NCBI RefSeq assembly: GCF_022549785.1
Contig: NZ_JAKZGO010000002.1
Coordinates: 1 to 64,000, forward strand
Direction of reading: 5' to 3'
DNA length: 64,000 nt
Origin: Belliella alkalica
GTDB taxonomy: Bacteria; Bacteroidota; Bacteroidia; Cytophagales; Cyclobacteriaceae
Below the pieces are notes generated by a model, which saw only the letters and a list, made by a program, of their open reading frames with translations, did not search any database and was not told the DNA's origin. Position 1 is the first letter of the stretch. Every line of letters begins with the position of its first letter. Of this stretch, positions 24,540 through 49,257 are shown piece after piece. The position numbers and the translations under genes were made by a program.

Positions 24540-25568
24540 ATGAAGAAAGATCAAGTTACAATCACTGACTTAGCACGAGAATTGAATGTTTCTCCATCCA
24601 CTGTATCAAGGGCCTTGAACAATAGTCCATTTATAAGTGTAGAAAGGAAAAAGGTGATTTTGGAACTTGCAAAAAAAATGAACTATAGCCCAAATCAGCT
24701 AGCGCTTAGTCTTTTAAATAAAAGGACGAAGATTCTTGGGGTAGTTGTTCCTGAAATCACCAGCTACTATTTTTCGACAGCCATCAATGGCATTCAAGAT
24801 AAAGTAGGTAGTAGTGGCTACAAATTGATGATCAGCCAATCCAATGAATCTTTTGAGGAAGAAATCAGGCTAATGGAAGCAATGGCCCTAGTTAGGGTAG
24901 ATGGCTTTTTGATTTCTCCATCTTCGAATACACTGAATTATGACCATTTTGAAAAAATAAAAGACTCAGGTTTTCCATTAGTGATTTTTGATAGGGATTG
25001 TGTAGGGCTTGAAGCTGACAAAGTGGTTGTGGATGATTATTCAGGTGCTTTTCAAGCAGTAGAATATCTTATTCAAACAGGTTGTCACCGCATTGCTCAT
25101 ATAACAGGTTCCGCCAACCTTTCCACCACACAACATAGAAGAAAAGGATATTTGGATGCACTGCAAAAAAATAATTACCCGATTTTGGAGGATTTGATGG
25201 TAATTGGGGATGATTCTTCTTCAGAAAGTGGTGTGGCTTGCATGCAAAAACTTTTAGATCTTGAGCAAATTCCAGATGCGGTTTTTTGTTATAATGATGC
25301 CATTGCCATAGGTGCTATGTCCGTGATTAGGGAAAGAGGAATCGAAATCCCCGATCAAATTTCATTGGTTGGATTTGACGATGAACCATATAGTTCCTAC
25401 TTCAAACCTTCCCTTACATCAGTTTGGCAACCGATCTACGATCTTGGTCTTTTATCTGCAAAAATCCTTTTAGACAATCTTGAAATTGAAAAGGACAATC
25501 CGAATTACCGCTTTGAAGTTCTCAAACCAGAATTGGTTATCAGAGAATCTTCAAGGAAAATTGTTTGA
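24540..25568 (+). CDS. LacI family transcriptional regulator (probable inositol-operon regulator)
   Basis: This 342-residue protein has an N-terminal LacI helix-turn-helix (TITDLARELNVSPSTVSRAL, residues 7-26) and hinge helix region (NYSPNQLALSLLNKRT). The periplasmic-binding-protein-like effector domain follows (ILGVVVPEITSYYFS, FLISPSSN, HITGSANLSTTQHRR, VGFDDEPYSS). It is directly upstream of the inositol operon on the same strand, with its own promoter region and a 500-base spacer between. The palindrome ATGCAAACCTTTGCAT in the iol promoter has the dyad form expected for LacI-family operators, so this protein is the best candidate binder. The effector is probably an inositol-pathway intermediate; that is inferred. 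Confidence 0.88.
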   Translation: MKKDQVTITDLARELNVSPSTVSRALNNSPFISVERKKVILELAKKMNYSPNQLALSLLNKRTKILGVVVPEITSYYFSTAINGIQDKVGSSGYKLMISQSNESFEEEIRLMEAMALVRVDGFLISPSSNTLNYDHFEKIKDSGFPLVIFDRDCVGLEADKVVVDDYSGAFQAVEYLIQTGCHRIAHITGSANLSTTQHRRKGYLDALQKNNYPILEDLMVIGDDSSSESGVACMQKLLDLEQIPDAVFCYNDAIAIGAMSVIRERGIEIPDQISLVGFDDEPYSSYFKPSLTSVWQPIYDLGLLSAKILLDNLEIEKDNPNYRFEVLKPELVIRESSRKIV

Positions 25569-25619
25569 TAAAAAAAGTGAAGTTGTAGAACTGAGATGTG
25601 AGATTTGAGACAGTAAGTT

Positions 25620-25830
25620 GTAATAAGAGATGAAAACCACGAAGTGCTTGTCCCCTGAAAATAACTATCGGCACGGGAGGTTAAACTTTTAGTAACACAA
25701 GTTCGCAACCCGTGGATTAATGATGATCCAGAAAAGACAACCCCGAAAGGGGTTAAACCTTCAATAACCCCGTATGAAATGCGGGGAATAACGAGGATGA
25801 TTAAGAGCAACAACCCCGAAGCTGGTTGAA
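25620..25830. repeat. Cluster of REP-like palindromes
   Basis: Several short hairpins stand in a row: CACGGG/CCCGTG (25672-25714), AACCCC-GAAA-GGGGTT (25739-25754), an 8-base stem CCCCGTAT/ATGCGGGG with a GAA loop (25768-25786) and a degenerate CAACC/GGTTG (25811-25828). The C/G-rich character contrasts with the A/T-rich surroundings. The form is that of intergenic palindromic repeats that are dispersed in many Bacteroidota genomes; copy number elsewhere cannot be judged from one window. Confidence 0.55.
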
Positions 25831-25983
25831 CTCTACTATTTGTAAGAAAAAGTGTCAACTACTTTCAGGACGATACACTTTCAATTCTTTGCGAGAAACT
25901 CCACACCCATTAGCAAACCCTCCATCTTCCTTCCCAACTTTCCAATATTCATAATATAATACTTAATTTTTGTGAAATAAACT

Positions 25984-26017
25984 TTTGTTTATGCAAACCT
26001 TTGCATGATACTATTTG
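25984..26017 (+). promoter_or_regulatory. Promoter of the inositol operon
   Basis: TTTG at 25984-25987, a 21-base gap and TACTATTTG at 26009-26017 resemble the Bacteroidota promoter form TTTG-N19-21-TAnnTTTG, with one extra base in the downstream element. The LacI-type palindrome lies between the two elements, as expected for repression. The first gene starts 63 bases further on. Confidence 0.5.
25991..26006. promoter_or_regulatory. LacI-type operator, copy 1 (inositol operon)
   Basis: ATGCAAACCTTTGCAT has perfect 7-base arms around CC. An identical 16-mer lies at 36047-36062 before the second susC. The position between promoter elements and the adjacent LacI gene support an operator role. 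Confidence 0.75.
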
Positions 26018-26080
26018 GTTCTAGCCTTTCATTTTCGCGGATTTTCATGTTGTATTGTAATACAAATTCCACCCAAAATA

Positions 26081-27019
26081 ATGAAAGTCATTACTCAAGA
26101 TTTATTCAACGATTGCTATGGCAAATATGCTTTGGCTGCCATCAATGTTTTTACGATGGAGCAGGTTTTGGCGGTTTTTGAAGCAGCTGAAAAAGCGGAA
26201 TCTCCTGTGATCATTCAGACTACTCCCGTCGCTAGAGAATATGCTGGTGCGGAAATGATCCTTTCTATGATAGCTACAGCCTCTAGAATGTTTCCAAAGG
26301 TTGTTTTTTCACTACACCTAGATCATGGCAACGAACCGCACATTGAAGCAGCCCTTGATTCTGGAGCGTATTCTTCCGTAATGATCGATGCTTCCCACGA
26401 TATTTTTTCAATGAATGTTAGAAGAACTTCCGAAGTGGTTTCAAAAGCCCATGCAATAGGTATTCCTGTGGAAGCGGAGTTGGGTGTGCTCAGTGGGATA
26501 GAGGATGATATGGAGATAGAGGATTCTCTTGCCAAATATACCAAGCCTGAAGAAGTGTTGGATTTTGTGACCAAGACAAAATGTGACAGCTTGGCTATAG
26601 CAGTAGGTACCAGTCACGGAGCTTATAAATTTTCAGGAAACCAAGGGATTCGATTCGATATTTTAGAAAAAATACAATCACTTCTACCAAGATTCCCTTT
26701 GGTTCTGCATGGAGGTTCATCTGTCAATCAAAATGAAGTACAGAGGATCAACAAATTCGGTGGCAATATCAAAACTGGAAGCAGAGGAGTTTCTGACGAA
26801 GAAATAAAACAAGCAATCCAACTAGGGGTGTGCAAAGTGAACATTGCTACAGACCTCAGGGTACTTTGGACTGGTGTTCATAGGGAATTTTTCCACCAAA
26901 AGCCTGATTTATTCGATCCCATTATTCCCGGTAAAATTTACAGAAATGAATTGATTGAGACGGTTTTAAGAAAATTTGATCTGCTGGGTTCCACAGGAAA
27001 AGCAAAGAATTTCAATTGA
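26081..27019 (+). CDS. iolJ: Class II aldolase, probable 2-deoxy-5-keto-gluconate-6-phosphate aldolase
   Basis: From ATG 26081 the product has 312 residues of the class II fructose-bisphosphate aldolase family, with zinc-site and substrate motifs (FSLHLDHGN, EAELGVLSGIEDD, AVGTSHGAYKF, LVLHGGSS, KVNIATDLR). An upstream in-frame start at 26015 adds residues with no family match. It is the first gene of an operon that holds iolB, iolC and iolD, so its substrate is most likely 2-deoxy-5-keto-D-gluconate 6-phosphate, which is split to dihydroxyacetone phosphate and malonate semialdehyde. Family is firm; the iolJ role rests on context. Confidence 0.85.
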   Translation: MKVITQDLFNDCYGKYALAAINVFTMEQVLAVFEAAEKAESPVIIQTTPVAREYAGAEMILSMIATASRMFPKVVFSLHLDHGNEPHIEAALDSGAYSSVMIDASHDIFSMNVRRTSEVVSKAHAIGIPVEAELGVLSGIEDDMEIEDSLAKYTKPEEVLDFVTKTKCDSLAIAVGTSHGAYKFSGNQGIRFDILEKIQSLLPRFPLVLHGGSSVNQNEVQRINKFGGNIKTGSRGVSDEEIKQAIQLGVCKVNIATDLRVLWTGVHREFFHQKPDLFDPIIPGKIYRNELIETVLRKFDLLGSTGKAKNFN

Positions 27020-27053
27020 AACTTAAAATCCAGAAATATAAACAATATATCCA

Positions 27054-27941
27054 ATGAAAAGAGACGAAAAATACCCACTGTTGGCAAAACCCATAGCGAC
27101 CCAAGGAATCTATCAAAAGATTACCAAGGAGGATGGAAATTGGGAGTTTTTGAACTTTGAAGCCCGATTGATGAAAAAGGCTGAAGTTTGGAAAGGTTTT
27201 ACAGGGGAAAATGAATACGCGATTGTTCTACTTTCAGGGGATTTCAGTGTAGATTCTGACAAAGGTACATGGCAGACGAAAAACGGTAGAAAAGATGTTT
27301 TTTCTGGAATAGCCCATACACTTTATCTTCCGAGAAATACCAATTTTGAATTGAAAGCTGATTCTGATTTTCTCGACATTGCTTGTGGATGGTGTGAGAC
27401 TGACAGGGATTTTTCACCTTATTTCAAAACCCCCGAAATGGTTCAAATCGAAATCAGGGGTGGCGATAATGCCACCAGACAGATTAATGATCTTCTAGGT
27501 CCGGGATCGCCATGTCATCGACTCGTAGCGGTAGAAGTGTATACACCCTCGGGCAATTGGAGTTCTTTTCCAGCACACAAGCACGACGAGAGGATCCTTG
27601 ATAAAGATGGAAACTTATTGGAAGCGAGGTTGGAAGAAACATATTTTTATAAAATTGATAAACCTCAAGGCTACGCTATACAGCAAATCTATACACAAGA
27701 TAGAAGCCTAGATGAGATCGCTGTAGCTAGAAATAATGATGTTGTGTTGGTCCCAAAAGGTTACCATCCTGTTGTAGCTGGTCACGGTTACAATGTTTAT
27801 TATCTGAATTTCCTTACAGGCAGTGATCAGTCGCTTGCCAATACACCAGATCCAGACCATACTTGGATCTTTGATTCATGGAAAGGTAAGGATGCTAGAA
27901 TCCCAATGGTCACTGCTGAAATGAACGGTAAAAATGGATAA
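27054..27941 (+). CDS. iolB: 5-deoxy-glucuronate isomerase
   Basis: This 295-residue protein matches IolB, a bicupin that converts 5-deoxy-D-glucuronate to 2-deoxy-5-keto-D-gluconate. Recognisable parts are the N-terminal cupin (GENEYAIVLLSGDF, HTLYLPRN) and the C-terminal cupin (WSSFPAHKHDER with metal-binding histidines, LEETYFYKIDKPQGYAIQQI, VPKGYHPVVAGHGYNVYYLN, AxTPDPDHTWI-like end). Its last 8 bases overlap the iolC start, so the two are translated together. The length is normal for the family. Confidence 0.93.
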   Translation: MKRDEKYPLLAKPIATQGIYQKITKEDGNWEFLNFEARLMKKAEVWKGFTGENEYAIVLLSGDFSVDSDKGTWQTKNGRKDVFSGIAHTLYLPRNTNFELKADSDFLDIACGWCETDRDFSPYFKTPEMVQIEIRGGDNATRQINDLLGPGSPCHRLVAVEVYTPSGNWSSFPAHKHDERILDKDGNLLEARLEETYFYKIDKPQGYAIQQIYTQDRSLDEIAVARNNDVVLVPKGYHPVVAGHGYNVYYLNFLTGSDQSLANTPDPDHTWIFDSWKGKDARIPMVTAEMNGKNG

Positions 27942-28944
27942 GCAAAAAGATGTACTAACGATCGGTCGCTCTTCTATTGACCTTTACAGCCAACAGGTAG
28001 GAGCTGATTTTGTAGATATCAAAGGCTTTGATGCTTTTGTTGGTGGTTCTCCCTTGAATATTGCTACTGGATGCTCCAGGTTGGGCTTGAACTGTTCTTT
28101 GTTCACTGGGGTGGGAGAGGATAAGGTAGGAGATTTTATTTTGAATTTTCTTGAAAAGGAAAAAATTGACACCAATCACGTGGTGCGGATTCCCGGAGCC
28201 AGAAGCAGTGCTGTAGTATTGGGTATTCAGCCACCTGATAGGTTTCCATTGGTCTACTACAGAGATAATTGTGCGGATATTCAAATCACTATCGACCATG
28301 CCTTGCAAATAGCTTTTGAAGACTACAGATTGGTTGAAATCTCAGCTACTGCTTTGAGTAAAGAACCGAGTAAATCAACAGTTTTTTTCTCCGTAGAAAA
28401 GGCTTATTCTGAAAATATCCCTGTGGTTTTGGATATTGACTTCAGGGCAGATCAGTGGCATGATGTGAGGGCATTTGGGCTCAATGTCAGAGCGATTTTG
28501 CCAAAAGTGAAAATTGCGATAGGAACCGAAGAGGAGATTTTGGCTGCCATGCTCAAAGACCAAAGCCAGATCACGATCGAGCATCAACAGATTTCCGCAC
28601 CAAAAATCACAGGGGATGTCAATGAAGCTATTCAATCCATTTTGGAGACAGGAGTAGAAGTCCTATTGGTCAAAAGAGGTGCTCAGGGAGTGACGGTATA
28701 TACTTCAAAAGGTGAAATAATAGAAGTTCTTGGATTCCCAGTTGAGCCGCTCAATGTACTTGGAGCAGGGGATGCCTTTGCCTCAGGATTTATCTATGGT
28801 TATTTGCAAGGCTGGTCTTTGTACAAAGCATGCAGGATGGGAAATGCTAGTGGAGCTCAAGTAGTGCTGCAATCAGGTTGCGCCAACTTTATGCCTACTT
28901 TGGATGAATCCATGGCCTTTATAAAGTCCCATGGAGGTTTTTGA
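27934..28944 (+). CDS. iolC: 5-dehydro-2-deoxygluconokinase
   Basis: This 336-residue PfkB-family kinase carries the family signatures GFDAFVGGSPLNIATGCSRL near the N-terminus and NVLGAGDAFASGFIYGYL near the C-terminus, with the catalytic Asp in GAGD. It phosphorylates 2-deoxy-5-keto-D-gluconate and supplies the substrate of the aldolase encoded two genes upstream. It overlaps iolB by 8 bases. The protein lacks the C-terminal DUF2090 aldolase-like extension seen in some proteobacterial IolC, which fits with a separate aldolase gene here. Confidence 0.92.
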   Translation: MDKQKDVLTIGRSSIDLYSQQVGADFVDIKGFDAFVGGSPLNIATGCSRLGLNCSLFTGVGEDKVGDFILNFLEKEKIDTNHVVRIPGARSSAVVLGIQPPDRFPLVYYRDNCADIQITIDHALQIAFEDYRLVEISATALSKEPSKSTVFFSVEKAYSENIPVVLDIDFRADQWHDVRAFGLNVRAILPKVKIAIGTEEEILAAMLKDQSQITIEHQQISAPKITGDVNEAIQSILETGVEVLLVKRGAQGVTVYTSKGEIIEVLGFPVEPLNVLGAGDAFASGFIYGYLQGWSLYKACRMGNASGAQVVLQSGCANFMPTLDESMAFIKSHGGF

Positions 28945-28980
28945 AAAATAATTCTATCTAACCAACTGAAGAAAATATCA

Positions 28981-30846
28981 ATGAACACAATAAAACTAAC
29001 AGTAGCCCAAGCTTTGATCAGATTTCTTACGATGCAAAAAGTAGAAAGGGATGGTGTCGTACAACCATTTTTCGCTGGTTGTTTTGGGATATTTGGTCAT
29101 GGAAATGTTGGAGGAATTGGACAGGCTTTGCACCAAATGCCTGATTTCAAATACTACCAAAGTAGAAATGAACAAGCAATGGTACACACTGCTGCTGCTT
29201 TTGCCAAAATGAAAAATAGACTTTCCACATTTGCTTGCACTTCGTCCATTGGGCCAGGTGCTACCAATATGATTACCGCTGCTGCAGGGGCTACCATCAA
29301 TAGAATTCCTGTGCTACTATTACCTGGGGATATATTTTCAACAAGAAAAGTAGACCCGGTTTTACAACAGTTGGAAGCTTCCTATACACAAGATATATCG
29401 GTTAATGATTGCTTCAAGCCAATTTCAAAGTACTGGGATAGAATAAATAGACCTGAACAATTGATCAATTCTCTGCCGGCAGCAATGCGGGTTCTTACTT
29501 CACAGGATGAAACAGGGGCAGTTACAATCTGCCTTCCCCAAGATGTTCAGGCGGAATCTTTTGATTTTCCAGAGTCGTTTTTCGAAGAAAAAATTTGGTA
29601 CATCCCAAGGCCAGTTCCTGAATTTGAGCTATTGAAACGTGCTGCTGAACTGATCCGGAATTCGAAAAAACCGATGATCATCGCAGGAGGCGGAGTAATC
29701 TACAGTGAGGCAACAGATGAATTAAAAAATTTCATTGAGCAAACAGGTATTCCTGTTGGGGAGACTTTTGCTGGAAAAGGTGCTTTACCTTTTGATCATC
29801 CTTTGAATTTGGGAGCCACAGGTGCTACTGGAACGGAAGGTGCCAATGTAAACAGCACAGAAGCTGACTTGATCATTGGGATAGGAACTAGATACAGTGA
29901 TTTTACGACAGCTTCCAAAACAGCTTTCCAAAACAAGGAAGTCAAATTTATCAATATCAATATCGCTGCTTTTGATGCATTCAAACACGGTGCATTGTCG
30001 CTGACAGGGGATGCACGAGCCACTCTTGAAGCACTCTCCAAGCTTTTGGAAGGCTTTGAAACAGATATTTCTTATAGAAACAAAGCTGCGGAATTTAATA
30101 TTAGTTGGGATGAAAAAGTAAGCGAGGCTTATCTGCCAAATTCCGAGGACTTGATGTATCAATCCGAAGTCATAGGAGCAGTAAATGATTTCTCTGATCC
30201 AAAAGACGTAGTTCTATGTGCTGCGGGAAGCTTGCCTGGCGATCTTCATAAACTTTGGAGAACGCGAGATCCCAAAGGTTTTCATCTTGAATATGGTTTT
30301 TCTTGTATGGGTTATGAAATAGCGGGAGGTCTTGGTGCAAAGATGGCTTGCCCAGATCGGGAGATATACGTGATGGTTGGAGATGGAAGCTACTTGATGA
30401 TGGGAACAGAAATCGTCACTTCCATTCAGGAAGGCTATAAGCTGACGATTATTTTGATCAATAACAATGGCTATGCAAGTATTGGAGGCTTATCAAAATC
30501 ACTCGGAACAGAAGGTTTTGGCACTTCCTATCAATACAGAAACCCAGAATCAGGACAGCTTGACGGTGGTTTTTTGCCAGTTGATTTGGCAGAAAATGTG
30601 CGAAGCCTAGGAGCAGAATTAATTAAAGCAGAGAACATTCATAGCCTCAAGGACGCTTTGAAGCAAGCCAAAGAATACAGCAAGACAACTGTGATCTATG
30701 TAGAAACGAAGCCAGAAAGAAAACTTGCTGGGTATGGACATGCCTGGTGGGAAGTGCCAGTGTCGGAAGTTTCTGAAAAAGATTCTGTTAAAGATGCCTT
30801 TGGCAAAATGAAGGAAAATCAAAAGAAGCAGAGATATTTTAATTGA
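28981..30846 (+). CDS. iolD: 3D-(3,5/4)-trihydroxycyclohexane-1,2-dione acylhydrolase
   Basis: This 621-residue protein belongs to the thiamine-diphosphate enzyme family. It shows the N-terminal pyrimidine-binding part (FACTSSIGPGATNMITAAAG), the central domain (KKPMIIAGGGVIYSEA) and the C-terminal cofactor-binding motif (MVGDGSYLMM followed by ILINNNGYASIGGL). IolD opens the inositol ring by hydrolysing the dione to 5-deoxy-D-glucuronate. The length and domain order are normal. It follows iolC after 36 bases. Confidence 0.95.
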   Translation: MNTIKLTVAQALIRFLTMQKVERDGVVQPFFAGCFGIFGHGNVGGIGQALHQMPDFKYYQSRNEQAMVHTAAAFAKMKNRLSTFACTSSIGPGATNMITAAAGATINRIPVLLLPGDIFSTRKVDPVLQQLEASYTQDISVNDCFKPISKYWDRINRPEQLINSLPAAMRVLTSQDETGAVTICLPQDVQAESFDFPESFFEEKIWYIPRPVPEFELLKRAAELIRNSKKPMIIAGGGVIYSEATDELKNFIEQTGIPVGETFAGKGALPFDHPLNLGATGATGTEGANVNSTEADLIIGIGTRYSDFTTASKTAFQNKEVKFININIAAFDAFKHGALSLTGDARATLEALSKLLEGFETDISYRNKAAEFNISWDEKVSEAYLPNSEDLMYQSEVIGAVNDFSDPKDVVLCAAGSLPGDLHKLWRTRDPKGFHLEYGFSCMGYEIAGGLGAKMACPDREIYVMVGDGSYLMMGTEIVTSIQEGYKLTIILINNNGYASIGGLSKSLGTEGFGTSYQYRNPESGQLDGGFLPVDLAENVRSLGAELIKAENIHSLKDALKQAKEYSKTTVIYVETKPERKLAGYGHAWWEVPVSEVSEKDSVKDAFGKMKENQKKQRYFN

Positions 30847-30890
30847 TCTGATCAAATTACCCTTAGCAACCTAACCCAAAAAATCATCCA

Positions 30891-32474
30891 ATGGTACTTA
30901 CCATCGTCAGTTTTGTAGGCTTTACGCTCTTCGTGGCTTTTTATTCTTGGTACAAAACCAGAAATGAAAATCTTTCCACACAAGAAGGGTATTTTTTAGG
31001 CGGTAAAAGTCTAACTGGTGTAGTCATAGCAGGATCCATGATCATGACCAATATTTCTACCGAGCATTTGGTAGGAATGAATGGGTCTTCTTACAAAAAT
31101 GGATTTATCATCGTTGCTTGGGAAGTGACTTCTGCTTTGGCTTTGATTTTGGCTGCACTGTATTTTGTGCCGAAATATCTCAAGATGGGACTTATCACCA
31201 TTCCCCAATATTTGGAAGAGCGATTTGATGCTTCTACGAGGTCTTTGGTTGCATTTTTTCTTCTGGTTTCATTTGCGGTGACATTATTGCCCATTGTTCT
31301 TTATACAGGGGCGATTAATCTTGAAAGTCTCTTCGAAATCTCCGAGTTACTGGGTGTAAGTCATCAGGAAGGAATTTGGATCACTGTATTGTTTGTAGGG
31401 GTTTTAGGGTCTATCTATGCGATTTTTGGGGGGCTCAAGGCAGTTGCTGTTTCTGATACAATCAACGGTTATGGTCTTTTGCTGGGGGGGATTTTGATTC
31501 CGCTGATTGCCTTGGTCTTTATCGGGGATGGGAATCCTGTTGATGGTATTGTCAAAGTTTTTGAACATTCACCGGAGAAGTTCAGCGTAATTGGGGATTC
31601 TGACTCTGTATTGCCCTTTGAAACATTATTCACAGGGTTGATCATCAATCAAATTTATTTCTGGTGTATGAATCAAACGATCTTACAGCGTGCTTTGGGT
31701 GCAAAAAGCTTAGTGGAAGCCCAAAAAGGCCTTTTGCTAACTGGAGCTCTGAAGTTGTTTGTTCCTTTCATTATCGTGTTGCCAGGGGTTATTGGGTTTT
31801 ATTATTTCGGTGATGCATTGATGGACAATCAAGATCTGGTATATCCTGCATTGGTCAAGAAAGTCCTTCCAGTTGGTTTTACGGGAGTCTTTGCAGCAGT
31901 GTTGATGGGGGCTGTTTTGAGCACTTTCAATAGTGTTTTGAATAGTGCTTCGACCATTTTCAGCATAGATATATATAAAAGGATGATTTTCCCAAAAGTC
32001 TCAGACAGGAATTTGGTCCGGGCAGGGAAGGTGTCAGCGACAGTACTCGCTATCATAGCAATTGTGGCAGCACCAATGGTCTCCAATGCCCCTGAAGGAT
32101 TGTTTCAGTTGCTGCAACAGCTCAATGGGATTTTCTTTATACCGATCGCATCGATCATGTTAGCGGGGTTTCTGACCAAAAAAGTAACCGCTCTAGCGGC
32201 AAAAGTTGCCTTGGTCATTGGGTTGATTTTCTATATCATGGTCACTTTTGTTTTGAAGTTGGATATTCATTTTGTGCATGTGTGGGGCATAGAGTTTTTG
32301 CTCAATTGTACCATCATGTTGGTGATATCCTACCTGATTCCTTCACCAGAAAATATTGTGAAAAAATACCCTCTTGGAAATTACAAAATGCAAGGTTGGA
32401 AATATGCGGGATTGGTGTCCACCATTTTGGTCATCATTACCATTGCCGTCTATATCATATTTGGTTCAATTTAA
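30891..32474 (+). CDS. Sodium:solute symporter, probable inositol transporter
   Basis: This 527-residue inner-membrane protein has about 13-14 hydrophobic helices and solute:sodium symporter family features (YFLGGKSLTGVVIAGSMIMTNIS, GSIYAIFGGLKAVAVSDTING, GAVLSTFNSVLNSASTIFSIDIY). It lies between iolD and iolA, 44 bases after the former, so it is probably the inner-membrane inositol importer. Members of this family also carry glucose, galactose or sialic acid; the substrate is inferred from the operon. Confidence 0.88.
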   Translation: MVLTIVSFVGFTLFVAFYSWYKTRNENLSTQEGYFLGGKSLTGVVIAGSMIMTNISTEHLVGMNGSSYKNGFIIVAWEVTSALALILAALYFVPKYLKMGLITIPQYLEERFDASTRSLVAFFLLVSFAVTLLPIVLYTGAINLESLFEISELLGVSHQEGIWITVLFVGVLGSIYAIFGGLKAVAVSDTINGYGLLLGGILIPLIALVFIGDGNPVDGIVKVFEHSPEKFSVIGDSDSVLPFETLFTGLIINQIYFWCMNQTILQRALGAKSLVEAQKGLLLTGALKLFVPFIIVLPGVIGFYYFGDALMDNQDLVYPALVKKVLPVGFTGVFAAVLMGAVLSTFNSVLNSASTIFSIDIYKRMIFPKVSDRNLVRAGKVSATVLAIIAIVAAPMVSNAPEGLFQLLQQLNGIFFIPIASIMLAGFLTKKVTALAAKVALVIGLIFYIMVTFVLKLDIHFVHVWGIEFLLNCTIMLVISYLIPSPENIVKKYPLGNYKMQGWKYAGLVSTILVIITIAVYIIFGSI

Positions 32475-32489
32475 ATTTTAAAAAATAGA

Positions 32490-33965: not shown

Positions 33966-33977
33966 ACATTATACAAA

Positions 33978-34877: not shown

Positions 34878-34973
34878 TGAATATAACCCCTTTGTCTGTG
34901 TCCTCACAGACCAAATTTAGTGCCCCCACAAATCAAAGTTAAGTCTCAGTAAGTCATTAAAGTCAAAAACGTC

Positions 34974-36008
34974 ATGAAAAATATAAAAGTAGGAGTGATC
35001 GGAATGGGAAGGATTGGAAAGATTCATTTCGATAACCTAAAAAACCAAATCGAGCATGTAGAAGTGCTGGCAATCTCAGATCCTTTTTTTACAAAAAATG
35101 TAGGTGTTCCCAACATTAGTTCAGAAGAATTGATTCAGCACAAGGATATTGAAGCTGTGATTATTTGTTCTCCTACGGATACACATGCTGACTACATCTC
35201 TTTATGCGCCAAAGCGGGTAAGCATGTTTTTTGTGAAAAGCCACATGATTTATCTGTCAACAGGGTTTTGGAAACTTTGCAGGAAGTAAGAGATTCTGGC
35301 GTGAAACTAATGTTGGGGTTTAATAGAAGATTTGATCCAAATTTCCAAAAAATAAGGTCATTGGTTCAGCAAGGTGAAATTGGAGATGTGCATCTACTGA
35401 AGATTACTAGTAGGGATCCTGCGCCACCTTCTTTAGAATACTTAAAAAGTTCTGGAGGAATGTTTTTGGACATGACTATTCATGATTTTGATATGGCAAG
35501 GTTTATCATGGGAAAAGAAGTTGGGGAAGTTTATGCCGTTGCGGGTGCTTTTACTTCAGAAAGTGTGCAAGAGGCTAATGATATTGATACTGCAGTTATC
35601 ACATTAAAATATGAAGATGGTACAATGGCGGTGATTGACAATAGTCGTAAAGCAATTTATGGTTATGATCAAAGGTTGGAGATTTTTGGATCAAAAGGAA
35701 TGGCGAAAGTTGATAATAACAAGCCAGATACACATGTTCTCTATAACGAATATGGAGCCCATGGTGCATTGCCTTTGAATTTCTTTATGGAAAGATACAC
35801 CATGTCTTACAAAGTGGAAATGCAAAAATTCATAGAGGCACTAGTTGATGATCAGCCACTTCCTATCTCTGGAATTGACGGGCTCAAAGCAATGATGATT
35901 GCACTTGCTGCCCAGTTGTCAATCGCTGAAAACAGACCAGTTACAATTAAGGAAATTTCGGAAGAAAAAGTAGGTAGGGAATATACTGAGCAAATTATTG
36001 TAAAGTAA
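34974..36008 (+). CDS. iolG: Inositol 2-dehydrogenase
   Basis: This 344-residue Gfo/Idh/MocA-family oxidoreductase has the NAD-binding start VGVIGMGRIGKIHFDNL, the conserved catalytic lysine in HVFCEKPHDLS, and GFNRRFDPNF, SGGMFLDMTIHDFDMARF and DNSRKAIYGYDQR, as in inositol 2-dehydrogenases. It oxidises myo-inositol to scyllo-inosose, the first step of the pathway. It ends the operon and is separated from iolE by 96 bases. No clear terminator follows, so transcription may run on towards the second susC. Confidence 0.9.
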   Translation: MKNIKVGVIGMGRIGKIHFDNLKNQIEHVEVLAISDPFFTKNVGVPNISSEELIQHKDIEAVIICSPTDTHADYISLCAKAGKHVFCEKPHDLSVNRVLETLQEVRDSGVKLMLGFNRRFDPNFQKIRSLVQQGEIGDVHLLKITSRDPAPPSLEYLKSSGGMFLDMTIHDFDMARFIMGKEVGEVYAVAGAFTSESVQEANDIDTAVITLKYEDGTMAVIDNSRKAIYGYDQRLEIFGSKGMAKVDNNKPDTHVLYNEYGAHGALPLNFFMERYTMSYKVEMQKFIEALVDDQPLPISGIDGLKAMMIALAAQLSIAENRPVTIKEISEEKVGREYTEQIIVK

Positions 36009-36444
36009 TGCTGTTTTAAGATGTAAATATATTAGGAATAAGTGTCATGCAAACCTTTGCATAAATCAAGCTTGTTACAGAGGGAAATTGTTACTAATAT
36101 AGCATAGGCATTAGCCAATAAATATGGTGTAAATAAAGGAGCAAGGTTAATAATTATGTATTTATGGTTAAGACTGAAAGTGAGAATATATTACTCATTT
36201 GACCTTCAAAGTTGCAAAAAAATGTATTGCCCAAAAACCTAATCACTATAGTTTAGTCTCCAAAAAAAACATTTAAAAAAATCTAAAACGTGCTAAATAG
36301 TTGATTTAAGAAAAATCAATCAATGGAAAATTCATGCCTAAACCCTAAAGAAAATAATTGTGAAGGACTTTAAAACTCGAAAAGTGGTTTTTCAGGATTC
36401 ATGATCTGAACTAAGAAACGACAATAACAATAAACCAAATCAAA
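36009..36444. other. Spacer between iolG and the second susC
   Basis: No gene is supported in these 436 bases. The left end holds the second copy of the ATGCAAACCTTTGCAT palindrome. I see no strong terminator after iolG. The rest is A/T-rich leader sequence, long for a susC transcript. Confidence 0.55.
36047..36062. promoter_or_regulatory. LacI-type operator, copy 2 (iolG-susC spacer)
   Basis: The 16-mer ATGCAAACCTTTGCAT is identical to the site at 25991-26006 in the inositol promoter. It lies 39 bases after iolG and about 380 bases before susC. An exact copy of a perfect palindrome at a second promoter region is good evidence of shared control by one LacI-family protein. Confidence 0.72.
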
Positions 36445-39400
36445 ATGAAAAAAACCCTTACCAATTTAAATCTGATAGCTAATTTCGAGATGAAATATCG
36501 GCTATTACCAAATCTAAGATTACTTTATCTCACCTGTAGCTTCCTGTTGCTTAGTGCAATGTCTGTTTATGCACAGAGTTCTACCATTACAGGGGTAGTA
36601 ATATCTGGAGAAGATGATCAACCATTTCCAGGAGTTACTGTGATGGTAAAAGGAACCTCAAATGGAGCTGTGACAGATTTGGATGGAGCGTTTTCCATCA
36701 ATGTAACCAATGCGTCAAATGCCACTTTGGTTTTCTCTTTTATTGGATTTATCACTCAAGAAGTTGCATTAAATAATAGAAGCTTCATAGAGGTGACAAT
36801 AGAGCCAGATGTGTCCCAACTTGACGAAGTGGTAGTAATCGGGTATGGAGAGAGCAAAAGAAGAGACCTTACAGGTGCTGTAGGTTCCATGAACTCTGAC
36901 AATATCAAGGAAACAAACAAGGTCAATGCTTTTCAAGCCTTGCAGGGACAAGTAGCGGGTGTGAATATCCAAGCTGCTGACAATAAGCCAGGTGGAGGAT
37001 TTAATGTTAGGATTAGGGGAGCAAATACGATCAATGCGAATGAGACAGTTGATCAAGGTGGATTTAGTGCAGGTCAAAACCCATTGTTTATTGTAGATGG
37101 GATTTTTGTGAATGATATTTCTTTCTTGAATCCATCAGATATTGAGAGAATGGATGTCCTCAAAGATGCTTCAGCTACAGCTATTTACGGTTCACGTGGA
37201 AGTAATGGTGTGGTTATAATTGAAACCAGAAAAGGAGCAAAAGGGAAGCTAACAGTACAATATGATAACTATATTGGTGTAAGACAGGCATACAACGTTC
37301 CAGAAATGTTTCAGGGGGAAGAGTTTGTCCAATATTTTAAAGATGCTGTTGTAGGGAATCAGTGGGCAGGAGGAAACAGGAATTTCACTGTAAGTGATGT
37401 GGACTTGAGTGATTTTATGAGGCCTAACGAATTAGCAAATATCAATGCTGGTAGATTTACAAATTGGATAGACTTAGTGACTACAACTGGTGCGCAACAA
37501 AATCACACAGTAAACCTTAGTGGAGGAAACGATAACTCCATCTATGGCTTTGGTATGGCATATACTAAAGATGAAGGTACTTTTGCTGGCGAAGATTTTG
37601 AAAGATTCAATTTAAGGGCAAATGTGAACACGAATTTATCAAAGTACGTTTCTCTTGGATTTAGTAATTATGCTTCCTTTGCAATAAGGAATGAAGGTAG
37701 TAGAGAAGGTTTGAGAAGTGCCTACAGATTAAGACCTACTGGGTCTCCTTTTGAAGAAAACGGCAATCCTAAATTTTTCCCAATAGAAGGCGAAACGTTT
37801 ATTTCGAATCCTCTATTTGAACCTGAGTCCATGACTATGGAAACTAGGACTTTTAATTACTTGAGTAATCTTTCACTTTCTGTAAGTCCAACAAAAAAAT
37901 TGAAATTCACATCTAACTTTTCACCAAATATCGAATTTATGAGATATGGAGAGTACAGGGGGAGATTCAATAAATCAACCAATGGAATTATCCAAAATAC
38001 AAGGGCAGATGTGACCAATGGAAATCGAATTTCTTATACATGGGATAACATCATGAATTACAACACCCAGTTTGGTGATGATCATGTTATCAATGCCACC
38101 TTTGTTTATTCTATGTTTTCGGATAGATATGAAAATTACAGAATGCAAAGAAGAGGATATTCTACAGATCAATTTTTATTCTACAATATGCAAGCTGGTC
38201 CAGATATTCGTGATGTCACCAGTGGATTGTCGAAACAAACGCTTGAGTCTTACACTGCTAGGGTAAATTATAATTTGAAAGATAAATACTTATTTACAGT
38301 TACCGGTAGGTATGACGGAGCATCTATCCTTGCGGATGGGAATAAATGGGCATTCTTTCCTTCAGCAGCAGTAGCTTGGAGAGTTTCAGATGAATCATTT
38401 ATGAAAGGTCAGACAACTGTGGAAGACCTCAAAGTAAGACTAAGTTATGGTGAAACAGGTAATAATGGTTCTGGTGGAGGATTGGGTCCCTTATTAGCTC
38501 AATCACTTGTCAACAATTCCAATTTCGTCAATTTGGGTGACCAACCTGTTCAGTCAGCATTTATGACAAGTCTTATCAATAGAGACCTGACTTGGGAAAG
38601 GACAAAGGAGTTTAACTTAGGTGTTGATTTTGGCTTTTTCAAAAATAGGTTGTATGGTTCTTTGGACTTGTACGAAAGACAAAATACAGGTATTATATTC
38701 TTTAGGCCAACACCGATTTTGACAGGTTATACAGGTGTTTATGAAAACATTGGTAATGCAACCAACAGAGGTATAGAATTAACTTTGAATTCAGTGAATT
38801 TTGACAATGGAAATTTCAAATGGACTTCATCCCTCAACTTTGCTAGCAATAGAAATAGAATCACCAAACTAACTGGCCAAACTGACGAGATTTTATTTGG
38901 TGTACAAGCAGGTTCATATATTCATAGAGTAGGGGAGTCTATTGGCTCTATTTATACTTGGGTTTTCGATGGTATCTGGCAACTCGATGAGTTGGAGCAA
39001 GCTCAGGCTTTTGGACAACTTCCTGGCCAAGTCAAAGTAAGAGACATCAACAATGACGGTGTGATAGATGCAGATGATAGGGATGTCATTGGTAATAACC
39101 TTCCAAAATGGACAGGTGGCTTATCAAATACTTTCAACTATAAGAATTTTGACTTTACTTTCTTTGTACATACACTCCAAGGTGCTAAGTCCGCAAGTTA
39201 TTTTCATATTTCGCACTCAGGTTATTACAATGTATTGGCAAGATTCAATAGCTTGAAAACTAACTATTGGACTCCTGATAATCCTTCTAATGAATGGCAT
39301 CAGCCTAGTAATGATGGCCCATTTGCAGAGCCTTTGGTTTACAGAGATGTGTCTTTTGTCAAAGTAGGTTATATCACACTTGGGTATAACTTCGGGAAAT

Positions 39401-39570
39401 CTATCATAGAACCATTGAAAGTCAGTAGCCTAAGGGTGTATTTTACTGCCCAAAATCCTTTCACTTTTACTTCTTATGAAGGATGGGATCCAGAAACTGC
39501 TGCTAGAAACAGTTGGGGATCTGCCAATCTTTCGAGAATCTTGATGGGTGGAATTAATGTCAAATTTTAA
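36445..39570 (+). CDS. SusC/RagA family TonB-linked outer-membrane protein (second pair)
   Basis: This 1041-residue protein has an N-terminal signal region (ending AMSVYAQ) and a carboxypeptidase-like domain (TITGVVISGEDDQPFPGVTV). The SusC plug signature follows (VVVIGYGESKRRDLTGAV, NPLFIVDGIFVNDI), then a barrel with VRDINNDGVIDADDRDV and the terminal GGINVKF. It pairs with the SusD encoded 11 bases later. The shared operator with the inositol operon and the acid phosphatase gene that follows suggest import of a phosphorylated or conjugated inositol. The lyase and GH105 genes further on leave a uronate polymer as the alternative. Confidence 0.93.
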   Translation: MKKTLTNLNLIANFEMKYRLLPNLRLLYLTCSFLLLSAMSVYAQSSTITGVVISGEDDQPFPGVTVMVKGTSNGAVTDLDGAFSINVTNASNATLVFSFIGFITQEVALNNRSFIEVTIEPDVSQLDEVVVIGYGESKRRDLTGAVGSMNSDNIKETNKVNAFQALQGQVAGVNIQAADNKPGGGFNVRIRGANTINANETVDQGGFSAGQNPLFIVDGIFVNDISFLNPSDIERMDVLKDASATAIYGSRGSNGVVIIETRKGAKGKLTVQYDNYIGVRQAYNVPEMFQGEEFVQYFKDAVVGNQWAGGNRNFTVSDVDLSDFMRPNELANINAGRFTNWIDLVTTTGAQQNHTVNLSGGNDNSIYGFGMAYTKDEGTFAGEDFERFNLRANVNTNLSKYVSLGFSNYASFAIRNEGSREGLRSAYRLRPTGSPFEENGNPKFFPIEGETFISNPLFEPESMTMETRTFNYLSNLSLSVSPTKKLKFTSNFSPNIEFMRYGEYRGRFNKSTNGIIQNTRADVTNGNRISYTWDNIMNYNTQFGDDHVINATFVYSMFSDRYENYRMQRRGYSTDQFLFYNMQAGPDIRDVTSGLSKQTLESYTARVNYNLKDKYLFTVTGRYDGASILADGNKWAFFPSAAVAWRVSDESFMKGQTTVEDLKVRLSYGETGNNGSGGGLGPLLAQSLVNNSNFVNLGDQPVQSAFMTSLINRDLTWERTKEFNLGVDFGFFKNRLYGSLDLYERQNTGIIFFRPTPILTGYTGVYENIGNATNRGIELTLNSVNFDNGNFKWTSSLNFASNRNRITKLTGQTDEILFGVQAGSYIHRVGESIGSIYTWVFDGIWQLDELEQAQAFGQLPGQVKVRDINNDGVIDADDRDVIGNNLPKWTGGLSNTFNYKNFDFTFFVHTLQGAKSASYFHISHSGYYNVLARFNSLKTNYWTPDNPSNEWHQPSNDGPFAEPLVYRDVSFVKVGYITLGYNFGKSIIEPLKVSSLRVYFTAQNPFTFTSYEGWDPETAARNSWGSANLSRILMGGINVKF

Positions 39571-39581
39571 TTGAATTAAAG

Positions 39582-41192
39582 ATGAAAACTATATATAAAA
39601 ATTTCAATTTGCTTTGCATCGCTTTGCTTTCCTTTGCGGTGCTAGGATGTAGTGACTTTCTTGAAGAAGAAAATAAGTCTAGAGAAACAGATGTAGTGGC
39701 GAGCTCAAACCCTGCGTTTTTTGATCAATTGGTAGCAGAGGTATACAACAGGATGCGTGCTGTAACTTCTTCATATGATTTGGAGTTTTTGGGGACGGAT
39801 ATTTTCACCAGAGGTGATATCATCGCAGGGATCAACGAAATAAACGATTATGTCAATCTCAGACCCGTAAATGGATCAGTATCCAATCAGTGGTTTGTCA
39901 ATTATAGAGTAATTGCCGCATCCAATGCAGCAATAGATAGATCTAATGAGATTACAGGCCTAACTGATGCTGCAAAGCAAATAGGATTAGCAGAAGTTAA
40001 GTTCTTTAGGGCATATGCTTATTTTAACCTTGTAGAACATTTTGGGGGCGTTCCTTTAGTTCTAAATGAATTGAGAACTTCAACTGTAGATTTTACCAGA
40101 AATACTGAATCTGAAGTTTATAATCAGATTATTTTAGATTTGACAGATGCTTTGAACGGTACTCCTGACGCTCCTTCTGCATATGGTAGGGTGTCCAAGA
40201 ATGCTGTAAGGCACCTTTATTCTAAAGTTTTGTTGACAAGAGGTTACAAGGATTTTGGCTCTTCACAAGACTTCACCCAAGCAGCATCTTTGGCAGAAAC
40301 AGTAATAGCGGCCCATCCTTTAGTTAATAGCTTCTCCACACTTGTTTCCAGACAAAGCCAGAGAAACAGTGAAGTTATCTTCTCTATCTTGTACGGCTCA
40401 AACCCAGTATCAAGAGGTGTAGGAAACAGCAGACATTTGTTGTTTAAGTTTGTCTATGATGTGTATCCAGGACAGACAAGATCTACATTATATCATAGAG
40501 GCCTTGGTCCTGCACCTACTCCTTACTTCTTTAGCTTGTTTCAAGAAAATGATCAAAGAGAAGCAGCCACTATCAGAAGACTATTATTGGCAGAGGTAAA
40601 CAATGCAACAGCAGGCATCGCAGTAGGAGATACTTCCATTTATTTTCCCAAAACAGCATGGAGTGCAAGTGTAATCCAAAGTAAGCCTTATGTGGTTGTG
40701 AACCCTTCAAATTATTTTATTCCAAATGGCTTTACTCAAGTTCAGTATCCGATGTTTAAAAAGTTTGATGATCCAGGTGTGCCATATACCAATCCAGGGA
40801 TTAACCCTGACGGTGAGCGTGATGCTATAATTATGAGATCTGGAGAAACAAGACTTTTGGCTGCAGAAGCATATTTGCAGCTAAACAATACAGCAAAAGC
40901 CGCTGAGCACCTGAATGCCATCAGATCACGCGCTGGACTCAACCAACCTATCACTCCTGCACAAGTTACTATTGATTTGATTTTGGACGAAAGTGCCAAA
41001 GAGCTTGCTGGTGAAGTAAGTCGCTGGATGGATCTCAAAAGAACAGGCAGATTGATTGAAAGAGTGCTTGCTCACAACCCTCACGCAGCCTTGAACAATG
41101 CCATCAGACCATTCCATCTCCTAAGACCTATACCACAAAGTGAAATAGATGTGACTGGAGGTATCCTAGAACAAAATCCTCAATACAATTAA
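39582..41192 (+). CDS. SusD/RagB family binding lipoprotein (second pair)
   Basis: This 536-residue protein has a lipoprotein signal with lipobox (AVLGCSDFLEEENKS, cysteine near residue 23) and the SusD helical fold (AEVKFFRAYAYFNLVEHFGGVP; near the end AAEAYLQLNNTAKAAEHLNAIR and SAKELAGEVSRWMDLKRTGR). It is the surface ligand-capture partner of the SusC encoded 11 bases upstream. The protein is of normal length. Ligand unknown. Confidence 0.92.
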   Translation: MKTIYKNFNLLCIALLSFAVLGCSDFLEEENKSRETDVVASSNPAFFDQLVAEVYNRMRAVTSSYDLEFLGTDIFTRGDIIAGINEINDYVNLRPVNGSVSNQWFVNYRVIAASNAAIDRSNEITGLTDAAKQIGLAEVKFFRAYAYFNLVEHFGGVPLVLNELRTSTVDFTRNTESEVYNQIILDLTDALNGTPDAPSAYGRVSKNAVRHLYSKVLLTRGYKDFGSSQDFTQAASLAETVIAAHPLVNSFSTLVSRQSQRNSEVIFSILYGSNPVSRGVGNSRHLLFKFVYDVYPGQTRSTLYHRGLGPAPTPYFFSLFQENDQREAATIRRLLLAEVNNATAGIAVGDTSIYFPKTAWSASVIQSKPYVVVNPSNYFIPNGFTQVQYPMFKKFDDPGVPYTNPGINPDGERDAIIMRSGETRLLAAEAYLQLNNTAKAAEHLNAIRSRAGLNQPITPAQVTIDLILDESAKELAGEVSRWMDLKRTGRLIERVLAHNPHAALNNAIRPFHLLRPIPQSEIDVTGGILEQNPQYN

Positions 41193-41211
41193 TTTTAATT
41201 TTAAGAAAATG

Positions 41212-41261
41212 GTGAATTTATTCTGTTTTAGAGTGCTACTCTAAATACAGGGTAAATTCAC
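41212..41261 (+). terminator. Imperfect long hairpin after second susD
   Basis: Outer arms GTGAATTTA (41212-41220) and TAAATTCAC (41253-41261) and an inner stem with one bulged base (41223-41234 with 41238-41250) form a long hairpin followed by TTTATC. It lies where the first locus also has a hairpin after susD and may act as an attenuator. Confidence 0.55.
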
Positions 41262-41281
41262 TTTATCTAAAAATACGCCGC

Positions 41282-42286
41282 ATGGATTGCATAGAAATCA
41301 AAGTGAAATTTGTTAAAAAAACAGCTTTTAATTACCTAATATACAAGTTCATAGGATTTGTTGTTCTGCTTGGGTTTACATCTAAATCTTTTGCTCAGGA
41401 AGCAAGTCTCAGTAGTAAATTATCACCTGATGCATTAAATTTTATTGTGTTGGGAGATTGGGGAAGGTATGGTGATGATCATCAGCTACAAGTCGCTGAA
41501 CAGCTTGCCAAAACTTCAAAGGAAATCCATGCCCAATTTTTCATAAGTGTAGGGGATAATTTTTACCCTAAGGGCGTGGCGAGTATTCATGATGCGCATT
41601 GGCATTATTCCTTTGAAGATATTTATAAAGACTATGCTCACCAAAAAGAATGGTATAGTATTCTAGGAAATCATGATTACATGGGTAATCCAGATGCACA
41701 AGTTGAATACACCAACATCAGCAGGCGTTGGGTAATGCCAGGTAGATATTATACGAAGGATTTCAAACTGAAAGGAGACAAAAACAATCTCCTTCAAATT
41801 ACTTTTATCGATACAAACCCATTGATTCCTGAGTTTTATAACAATTCGGAATACGGTCCAAATGTAGTAACGCAAGACACTGTGGCACAGATTGGCTGGT
41901 TGAAAGAAACACTTTCAAGTGAGAATAAAAGGTGGAAATTGGTAATTGGTCATCATCCTATGTTTACAGCAAGTGAAAAACGCAGGGAAGGTTATGATAC
42001 AAGGTCAATCAGAAGTAGTCTGAGGGGGATTTTAGAAAACTACCAAGTAGATGCTTACATAGCTGGTCATGATCATAGTTTGCAACATTTACTTCCCGAA
42101 GGTGGTGTTCACCATTTTATTTCGGGCTCAGCCTCAGAAGCTACTGATGTGGGGACACTTCCATTTAGCAAATTTACAAAAAAAGAATTCGGCTTCTTGG
42201 TATTCTCAGTTACAGTTGACCAAATTCAAGTTTTTGCCATTTCCCATTCTGGCGAATTGTTGTATGAAACCAAAATCGTTAGATAA
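41282..42286 (+). CDS. Purple-acid-phosphatase-like (ACP5/TRAP-type) metallophosphatase
   Basis: This 334-residue protein has an N-terminal hydrophobic export signal (ending KSFAQ) and all five metal-site blocks of the tartrate-resistant acid phosphatase group: GDWGRYGDD, GDNFYPKGV, GNHDYMGN, IGHHPMF and AGHDHSLQHL. The active site is expected in the periplasm or on the surface. Such enzymes release phosphate from many esters, including, in some family members, inositol phosphates. It follows susD2 by 89 bases across a hairpin, so it probably removes phosphate from the imported ligand before inositol enters the cytoplasm. The phosphatase call is firm, the substrate inferred. Confidence 0.88.
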   Translation: MDCIEIKVKFVKKTAFNYLIYKFIGFVVLLGFTSKSFAQEASLSSKLSPDALNFIVLGDWGRYGDDHQLQVAEQLAKTSKEIHAQFFISVGDNFYPKGVASIHDAHWHYSFEDIYKDYAHQKEWYSILGNHDYMGNPDAQVEYTNISRRWVMPGRYYTKDFKLKGDKNNLLQITFIDTNPLIPEFYNNSEYGPNVVTQDTVAQIGWLKETLSSENKRWKLVIGHHPMFTASEKRREGYDTRSIRSSLRGILENYQVDAYIAGHDHSLQHLLPEGGVHHFISGSASEATDVGTLPFSKFTKKEFGFLVFSVTVDQIQVFAISHSGELLYETKIVR

Positions 42287-49098: not shown

Positions 49099-49103
49099 CA
49101 TGA

Positions 49104-49155
49104 TTATCCGCAATGATATTTGATGGCAATTTGAAGAATTGTATCATGCGGATAA
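49104..49155. repeat. Imperfect inverted repeat between SDR and FAH genes
   Basis: TTATCCGCAATGATA (49104-49118) pairs with TATCATGCGGATAA (49142-49155) with a single bulged A and a 23-base loop. It starts 6 bases after the SDR stop and precedes the FAH-family gene by about 100 bases. No T-run follows. It could be an RNA processing or regulatory structure. Confidence 0.55.
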
Positions 49156-49257
49156 GTGTCAACCTTCAAAAGTTGGCAGCTGCTGAATTTGAAACAAATA
49201 CATTATTAAATGTTGTAACTGCTGCGAAAGTGGATATACATACAATCAATTTAAAAT

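Follow-up and report, generated by a model that had tools for sequence, protein, structure and literature searches.

An inositol-linked SusCD module of Belliella alkalica as a candidate utilization system for glucuronosyl-inositol-phosphate headgroups

In Belliella alkalica, a member of the Cyclobacteriaceae, an operon for myo-inositol catabolism (iol) is followed by genes for a SusC-type outer-membrane transporter and a SusD-type surface lipoprotein, here named SusC2 and SusD2, and an identical operator-like palindrome precedes both units. These genes are located in a stretch of 64,000 nucleotides (positions 1 to 64,000 of contig NZ_JAKZGO010000002.1, assembly GCF_022549785.1), which is designated the window and to which all plain coordinates refer (Table 1). 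From the gene content of the window and of related loci, we infer that the system probably (at a rough probability of 0.55) serves the utilization of the headgroup of plant glycosyl inositol phosphorylceramides (GIPCs) or of a similar glucuronosyl-inositol-phosphate. The plant GIPC core is GlcNAc(1alpha-4)GlcA(1alpha-2)inositol-1-phosphate-ceramide (GlcNAc, N-acetylglucosamine; GlcA, glucuronic acid) (PMC6151786), the addition of GlcA is termed plant-specific (PMC9113257), GIPCs are termed major sphingolipids on Earth (PMC11907402), and Botrytis releases a soluble mannose-GlcA-inositol-phosphate (Man-GlcA-Ino-P) glycan (PMC11496612); descriptions likewise exist of iol in Parapedobacter indicus (PMC7500135) and of the inositol lipid metabolism of gut Bacteroidetes (PMC9246714). 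In the open-access literature searched, with subscription journals and preprints outside the search, neither a bacterial locus for the utilization of GIPC headgroups nor a description of a SusCD pair linked with an iol operon was found.

The initial annotation of the window, made from the letters alone, had called the iol operon near-complete, and the operon is in fact complete for catabolism, comprising IolG, IolE, IolD, IolB, IolC, IolJ, and IolA. IolB, IolC, IolD, and IolG score above the NCBIfam equivalog cut-offs and IolA above a subfamily-level cut-off; IolE is the best match at its gene yet stays below the cut-off, and IolJ is assigned by Pfam family and position, with no call over an equivalog cut-off. 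The SusC/SusD pair recognized in that annotation was confirmed by a SusC2 score above the TIGR04056 cut-off and by the Pfam SusD domains of SusD2. The next gene, described there as purple-acid-phosphatase-like, encodes a small enzyme of the purple acid phosphatase type (PAP), as indicated by a phmmer match to human PAP (3.4e-43) and by the motifs GDWG, GDNFY, GNHD, GHHP, and GHDH, which we take to be the five metal-ligand motifs of purple acid phosphatases. The cluster continues beyond this phosphatase to at least position 46894 with genes for a protein named Hep, a DUF4861 protein, and a GH105-type enzyme, and with its adjacent SusC and SusD and its carbohydrate-active enzymes it has the gene content of a polysaccharide utilization locus. 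No phytase family (such as PF02333) was detected among the scanned window genes from 24540 to 53527.

The 16-mer, ATGCAAACCTTTGCAT, which the initial annotation had reported in the iol promoter and between iolG and the SusC/SusD genes, is present in both places; its two inverted 7-bp arms flank a central CC, and 14 of its 16 positions are palindromic. Its core, TGCAAANNTTTGCA, was matched three times in the 4.95-Mb genome, and the reversed pattern, used as a control, was never matched; the third match, TGCAAACGTTTGCA, is on contig C1, with a different LacI gene on one side and a different susC on the other. Within the window, a search allowing up to three mismatches was not significant (four matches on both strands, a number reached by 10 of 100 shuffles); the weight of the operator rests on its exact copies and on conservation. 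For the latter, a strict pattern, RTGCAAANNTTTGCAY, was searched in 20 relatives, and the regions upstream of iolJ, iolG, the symporter gene, susC2, and the gene for the LacI-type regulator LacI1 were scanned with mismatches allowed. In the following, relatives are denoted by G numbers where they must be told apart (G108, B. calami; G166, B. filtrata; G090, Agaribacillus aureus; G125, a Flammeovirgaceae metagenome-assembled genome (MAG)), and G169 (Echinicola pacifica), G047, G111, and G190, which carry one genus label, are called the Echinicola group.

A site with at most one mismatch precedes iolJ in G043, G079, G159, G131, G083, G168, Parapedobacter, and G121; none was found before iolJ in G041, G144, G109, and G004, in whose fetched stretches no LacI1 was found either. 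Such a site also precedes susC2 in 11 of the 17 loci examined (G071 not among them), namely the window and ten relatives (three further Belliella, the four Echinicola-group genomes, two genomes of genus g67, and G121), and the corresponding sequences carry two mismatches in Parapedobacter and three to five in Pontibacter, Agaribacillus, G099, G016, and the G125-type MAG. The iolJ and susC copies of G121 both read ACGCAAACGTTTGCAT and are thus altered together, and in all four Echinicola-group genomes a site is found before the symporter gene as well. Among the 14 relatives with a SusD orthologue, the strict operator is confined to the SusCD cluster in seven (G166, G174, G123, G111, G190, G169, and G047), lies both within and outside it in G108, and occurs nowhere in G099; in G047 the strict copy is situated about 170 bp past the GH105 gene, the copies before susC and the symporter gene having one mismatch each. 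LacI1 orthologues stand beside iol operons without SusC2D2 in G079, G159, G131, G168, and G043 (53-78% identity) and beside SusC2D2 in Echinicola and genus g67 (56-62%). A LacI gene, a near-palindromic operator before each unit, and conservation across genera are therefore all found, and because the site precedes iolJ in several genera and susC in ten relatives, SusCD appears to be part of an inositol-type LacI regulon; LacI1 looks like an inositol regulator with SusCD among its targets. The earlier proposal that one operator links the iol operon and SusCD is upheld in that the same site precedes both and is kept across genera. As a separate observation, ATGCAAACGTTTGCAT is flanked by a different LacI gene (36-37%) and a different susC in G000 (C1:319480-319493) and in G143 and occurs also in G108 at C44:41701, marking a sister regulon with possible cross-talk.

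The distribution of SusC2D2 points to inositol independently of the iol genes. SusC2 and SusD2 were traced at about 50% identity or more to 18 loci, with SusD2 identities of 94% in B. calami, 81% in B. filtrata, and 80% in B. aquatica. The initial annotation had suggested a search of other genomes for iol operons beside susCD and the phosphatase gene; iol genes do adjoin SusC2D2 in six of the 18 loci (window, B. calami, B. filtrata, B. aquatica, G121, and Parapedobacter), and a PAP orthologue was found in just six. A dependence of SusCD on the Iol pathway had to be rejected, since the four Echinicola-group genomes keep SusCD, the operator, and an iol-type symporter beside SusCD that nests with the iol symporters of Belliella, G121, and G043 (98/96), and have no IolB, no IolD (best matches 28-29%), and no IolG orthologue (at most 32%); they possess MIOX (myo-inositol oxygenase), which degrades inositol and is unrelated to the Iol enzymes, elsewhere in the genome. 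In Agaribacillus, MIOX is encoded by the fourth same-strand gene past SusD (after PI-PLC (phosphatidylinositol-specific phospholipase C), GH28, and symporter genes), in Pontibacter MIOX lies directly 5' of SusC, and in G123, G174, G034, and G095 it is adjacent to a symporter relative of 63-64% identity (L136-L139). With relatives both beside MIOX and within iol operons, the symporter family tracks both kinds of inositol catabolism. The claim that SusCD is tied to inositol is supported by the shared operator, the MIOX neighbours, and the Echinicola symporter, and we regard the regulatory and inositol links of SusCD as well supported by these genomic comparisons.

Of 196 genomes of the family, 16 have IolB and 63 have MIOX (E<=1e-30), with no genome having both, so that 79 have either; at the looser threshold of E<=0.001, the IolB genome G080 has a MIOX match of 57 positions. 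A SusD orthologue is present in 15 of the 196 genomes (eight genera), 14 of which, all except G099, have IolB or MIOX (Fisher 1.4e-5), and all 16 genomes with a Hep orthologue (at least 47% identity) have one of the two (Fisher 1.8e-7), counts that ignore shared ancestry. The SusCD clade comprises eight genera of the family together with Parapedobacter and Pontibacter. A search of 395 genomes of the class (E<=1e-90) returned the source genome alone, and this lone match indicates that the clade is narrow or patchy. Within genus g67, the LacI1-SusC2-SusD2 block is absent in G153 (L105) relative to G174 (L051), with Hep, the phosphodiesterase, and the metallophosphoesterase retained.

Hep of the window matches no Pfam family at E values up to 5 and no PDB entry credibly by sequence. 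Its AlphaFold model, obtained with a seven-sequence input (a single-sequence input gave a pLDDT of 35.8), has the helical toroid and beta-sandwich of the toroid-type polysaccharide lyases. In a Foldseek comparison, the first 28 hits were uronate lyases or a uronyl epimerase (E 1.3e-11 to 6e-7), including PL15/PL17 alginate lyases, chondroitinase, exo-heparinase, hyaluronate and xanthan lyases, and dermatan sulfate epimerase, with arabinofuranosidases and mannanases scoring more weakly. N178, H179, and Y226 are invariant in an alignment of 19 homologues, presumably in the order known for toroid-type uronate lyases, and PDB titles among the fold matches name His202 and Tyr258 in Alg17c. With PL15/PL17 alginate lyases, exo-heparinase, and chondroitinases, Hep has in common the two-part fold of the model, and its invariant Asn178-His179 and following Tyr226 may correspond to their catalytic residues, whereas its identity to them is 8-12% and it lacks a Pfam family; on the reading proposed here, it is a candidate new uronate-lyase family. 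The hep gene follows SusD or PAP in 13 of the 18 loci, often together with DUF4861 (10 loci) and GH105 (7 loci), which points to a uronic acid. In G083, which has no SusC2D2, Hep has a different SusCD pair and two Exo_endo_phos genes for neighbours, in keeping with the proposed substrate. More distant Hep homologues (33-39%) occur in other neighbourhoods, some with sulfatases.

Phosphoesterases of five Pfam families adjoin SusCD in 14 of the 18 loci. Besides the PAP orthologues, they include a 629-aa-type metallophosphoesterase in three Echinicola-group loci. G174 and G123 have a phosphodiesterase and a further metallophosphoesterase, Agaribacillus has PI-PLC, G099 has alkaline phosphatase, and Parapedobacter has GDPD (glycerophosphodiester phosphodiesterase) two genes upstream of SusC; in G047, G125, G071, and G016, where some but not all neighbours were scanned, none was found. 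The first gene past SusD encodes a phosphoesterase in 8 of 18 loci of the SusC2D2 clade versus 0 of 10 control SusD genes, for which the first long gene was taken (short open reading frames skipped in L064 and L068, LacI genes in L066 and L067; L121 cut by the end). A first control set likewise showed no phosphoesterase among five genes beside other SusD genes (L034, L035, L039, L041, and L043, upstream of SusD, excluded). GH92 adjoins SusCD in Pontibacter, G111, and G016, the last of which also has a GH115-type gene (57 bits). The PAP orthologue of Pontibacter (L008:11743-12818) is split over two overlapping frames, by sequencing error or decay.

The most window-like iol operon outside Belliella among the 196 genomes is that of G043 (C19:192000-209000; L161, with L124), with 85% identity for IolB and 80% for the symporter. 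Its iolG is followed by TGCAAAGGTTTGCA and then by genes for a TonB receptor (26% identical to SusC2, without adjacent SusD), a beta-propeller phytase (PF02333, 286 bits), a phosphate-selective porin O/P, alkaline phosphatase, a protein with a purple-acid-phosphatase N-terminal domain, an unassigned protein, and fructose-bisphosphatase, and the cluster is closed by LacI1 (78%). Regulator family, operator and its place, TonB-type receptor, and phosphatases are thus common to both loci, whereas G043 has phytase and porin where the window has Hep, DUF4861, and GH105. By this arrangement, the outer module after iolG is exchangeable, a phytate module in G043 and SusCD-Hep in the window, and a common inositol regulon with modules of this kind is well supported by the sequences. 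The same operator and slot speak for inositol as the common theme, and the different genes make phytate less fitting for the window; together they raised our estimate for the GIPC headgroup from 0.50 to 0.55 and slightly lowered that for phytate. Two further arrangements were noted: upstream of iolJ, G043 encodes an additional SusC-SusD pair and an 828-aa protein, and in G168 the gene after iolG encodes a SusC-like receptor that is truncated at the contig end, with no operator separating the two.

In the scheme proposed here, we infer the repressor ligand, the substrate, and every catalytic step. LacI1 would bind both operators and respond to inositol or an iol intermediate, so that derepression would switch on at once the iol operon, including the inositol symporter of the inner membrane, and the SusCD outer module. 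SusCD would bind and import a soluble glycosyl-inositol-phosphate, most likely the plant-type GIPC headgroup hexose-(1alpha-4)-GlcA-(1alpha-2)-inositol-1-phosphate, freed from the lipid by phospholipases of the same or other organisms. In the periplasm, Hep would act on GlcA by eliminating the hexose bound at its O-4 (GH92 may take mannose in some relatives), GH105 would remove the unsaturated uronate from inositol, and PAP the phosphate, and free inositol would pass through the symporter to the Iol enzymes, or to MIOX in other lineages. The outer module is swappable, the same operator presumably driving the phytate module of G043. A uronate lyase needs a 4-O-substituted uronate, and GH105 suits an unsaturated uronate, PAP an inositol phosphate, GH92 mannose, and GH115 alpha-1,2-linked glucuronate; PI-PLC-like enzymes would suit a lipid diester. 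Because of Hep, DUF4861, and GH105, together with the GH92, GH115-type, PI-PLC, and phosphoesterase genes of relatives, hexose-GlcA-inositol-phosphate fits better than phytate, and we know of no further common molecule in which mannose or glucosamine is combined with glucuronate, inositol, and phosphate. The initial annotation had set an inositol ligand against the binding of uronic-acid polymers by SusD, a choice that need not be made because glucuronosyl-inositol-phosphate contains both.

A different account, which we judge unlikely, takes SusCD-Hep-DUF4861-GH105 as a locus for a uronic-acid glycan (pectin, arabinogalactan, or algal) that was captured by an inositol repressor, inositol being a cue for debris and not a part of the ligand. 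The lyase fold, DUF4861, and GH105 would suit such glycans, the window runs on into a fucosidase cluster, and two SusD paralogues of 36-39% identity lie near genes for glucuronate isomerase and LacI regulators (G082 and G126; L066 and L067), hinting at a wider uronate-linked SusD group. It leaves unexplained, however, why MIOX (Agaribacillus, Pontibacter) or PI-PLC stands beside orthologous SusCD, why phosphoesterases recur and the Echinicola group kept an iol-type symporter with SusCD, and why in G043 the corresponding slot is filled by a phytase module. Uronate-free inositol lipids (phosphatidylinositol, glycerophosphoinositol, fungal mannosyl-inositol-phosphoceramide, or mycobacterial phosphatidylinositol mannosides) are an improbable source of the ligand: PI-PLC in Agaribacillus, GDPD in Parapedobacter, and GH92 in three loci would agree with them, but Hep and GH105 would be left without work, and in G016 a gene of the GH115 type accompanies GH92 and indicates glucuronate. 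Least probable of all is that phytate or lower inositol phosphates are taken up and dephosphorylated by PAP. Of the ligands suggested in the initial annotation, phosphoinositol conjugates fit best and phytate fits badly here, given that no phytase family was seen in the scanned genes and PAP is far less frequent than Hep (6 versus 13 of 18 loci); as an idea it is confirmed by the module of G043, and for the main ligand of the window it is not the favoured one. That PAP adjoins susD, that SusCD belongs to the inositol regulon, and that the phytase module of G043 is under the same operator speak for phytate, whereas the G043 and Belliella modules have only a phosphatase superfamily in common, Hep and GH105 would have no role, and enzymes that act on diesters, PI-PLC and GDPD, are found in relatives.

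Several observations weigh against the GIPC headgroup as the ligand, or against parts of the scheme. The Belliella cluster has neither phospholipase nor mannosidase, GH105 and DUF4861 are common in pectin-type loci, and GH92, being present after a sister SusD of E. pacifica as well, is not specific. The five most diverged of the 18 SusCD loci lack Hep, the operator being found in none of the four of these scanned, and the scanned SusCD neighbours in G125 and G071 include neither a phosphoesterase nor an inositol gene. The Hep model is of moderate quality (pLDDT 73.8, pTM 0.73; TM about 0.4-0.55), and in G034, one of the genomes that have Hep and lack SusC2D2, Hep has unrelated-looking surroundings (FucI-like, DHDPS, BNR and, farther away, a metallophosphoesterase), which the Hep neighbourhoods of G095, G105, and G138 resemble by gene sizes alone. 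The strict operator lies exclusively outside the cluster in G121, G090, G125, G071, and G016, and operator control of MIOX in the Echinicola group was considered and not found, a single one-mismatch site near MIOX in G190 excepted. The shared ancestry of the genomes also limits what the co-occurrence of IolB or MIOX with SusD and Hep can contribute.

Compared with bacterial iol operons, the catabolic enzymes are the same, and the difference is that a LacI gene and its operator here extend the regulon to a SusCD importer and periplasmic enzymes; the portion of the cited iol description drawn on here does not tie SusC to iol. With the polysaccharide utilization loci of Bacteroidota the system shares the SusC/SusD pair, clustered carbohydrate-active enzymes, and a sugar-type regulator, and it differs in its switch, an inositol regulator, and in its proposed ligand, a small lipid headgroup that contains inositol and phosphate. 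The fungal GIPC phospholipase C of Botrytis has the same plant lipid as target and releases Man-GlcA-Ino-P, whereas no uptake or catabolic system is described in the cited part of that report (PMC11496612). If the proposed ligand is correct, the SusCD clade would have a role in inositol use, Hep would stand as a candidate for a new family of uronate lyases, and a testable gene set for the bacterial use of GIPC headgroups would be at hand; even with a different ligand, two predictions would remain, namely an inositol regulon whose outer modules are interchangeable and a pair of inositol pathways that can replace each other. More tentatively, a family of Bacteroidota may possess an inositol regulon in which outer modules can be exchanged. 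One such module would be a dedicated route for the uptake and catabolism of GIPC headgroups; a lyase of a new family would act there on 4-O-glycosylated GlcA-inositol, and inositol would pass to either of two unrelated pathways, Iol or MIOX, a major membrane lipid of plants thereby serving as carbon and phosphate source.

Table 1 Features of the inositol-linked cluster in the window
Feature	Position	Strand	Basis or remark
LacI1, LacI-family regulator, proposed inositol-responsive repressor	24540..25568	+	Pfam LacI/Peripla_BP_3
Operator 1, ATGCAAACCTTTGCAT	25991..26006		74 bp 5' of iolJ ATG; kept before iolJ in other genera
iolJ-like class II aldolase	26081..27019	+	Pfam F_bP_aldolase 3e-81; ATG at 26081
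iolB	27054..27941	+	TIGR04378 321.6 bits, cut-off 205
iolC	27934..28944	+	TIGR04382 374.3 bits, cut-off 300
iolD	28981..30846	+	TIGR04377 928.5 bits, cut-off 715
Sodium:solute symporter, proposed inositol importer	30891..32474	+	SSF/PRK10484; orthologues within iol operons and beside MIOX
iolA / methylmalonate-semialdehyde dehydrogenase	32490..33965	+	TIGR01722 572 bits, cut-off 448.5
iolE-like dehydratase	33978..34877	+	TIGR04379 215 bits, below cut-off 290
iolG inositol 2-dehydrogenase	34974..36008	+	TIGR04380 437 bits, cut-off 355
Operator 2, same 16-mer ATGCAAACCTTTGCAT	36047..36062		382 bp 5' of first possible susC start
SusC2, SusC-type TonB-dependent outer-membrane transporter	36445..39570	+	TIGR04056 840 bits (above cut-off)
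SusD2, SusD-type surface lipoprotein	39582..41192	+	SusD_RagB and SusD-like_3; lipobox-like LGC by reading
Purple-acid-phosphatase-type enzyme (PAP)	41282..42286	+	N-terminus signal-peptide-like; motifs and phmmer
Hep, predicted uronate lyase, helical toroid and beta-sandwich	42458..44242	+	Model fold; without Pfam family
DUF4861 protein	44250..45548	+	PF16153 2.4e-89; frame open from 44184, start 44250 chosen by reading
GH88/GH105-type unsaturated uronyl hydrolase	45554..46894	+	PF07470 2.1e-79; PDB GH105 relatives
MFS transporter, cluster membership uncertain	46973..48202	+	Also beside B. calami and B. filtrata clusters

Two neighbouring regions of the window were also noted. At 18683-20251, a single open frame with GDPD phosphodiesterase and GH16 domains, an unusual fusion, lies at the end of a SusCD1-GH31 cluster. 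The region 48343-57947, in which a second LacI gene faces genes for a GH29 fucosidase, an alcohol dehydrogenase, an amidohydrolase, a short-chain dehydrogenase/reductase (SDR), and an MFS transporter, and is preceded by SDR and 2,4-didehydro-3-deoxy-L-rhamnonate hydrolase-like genes (the latter under cut-off), looks like a fucose-type cluster.

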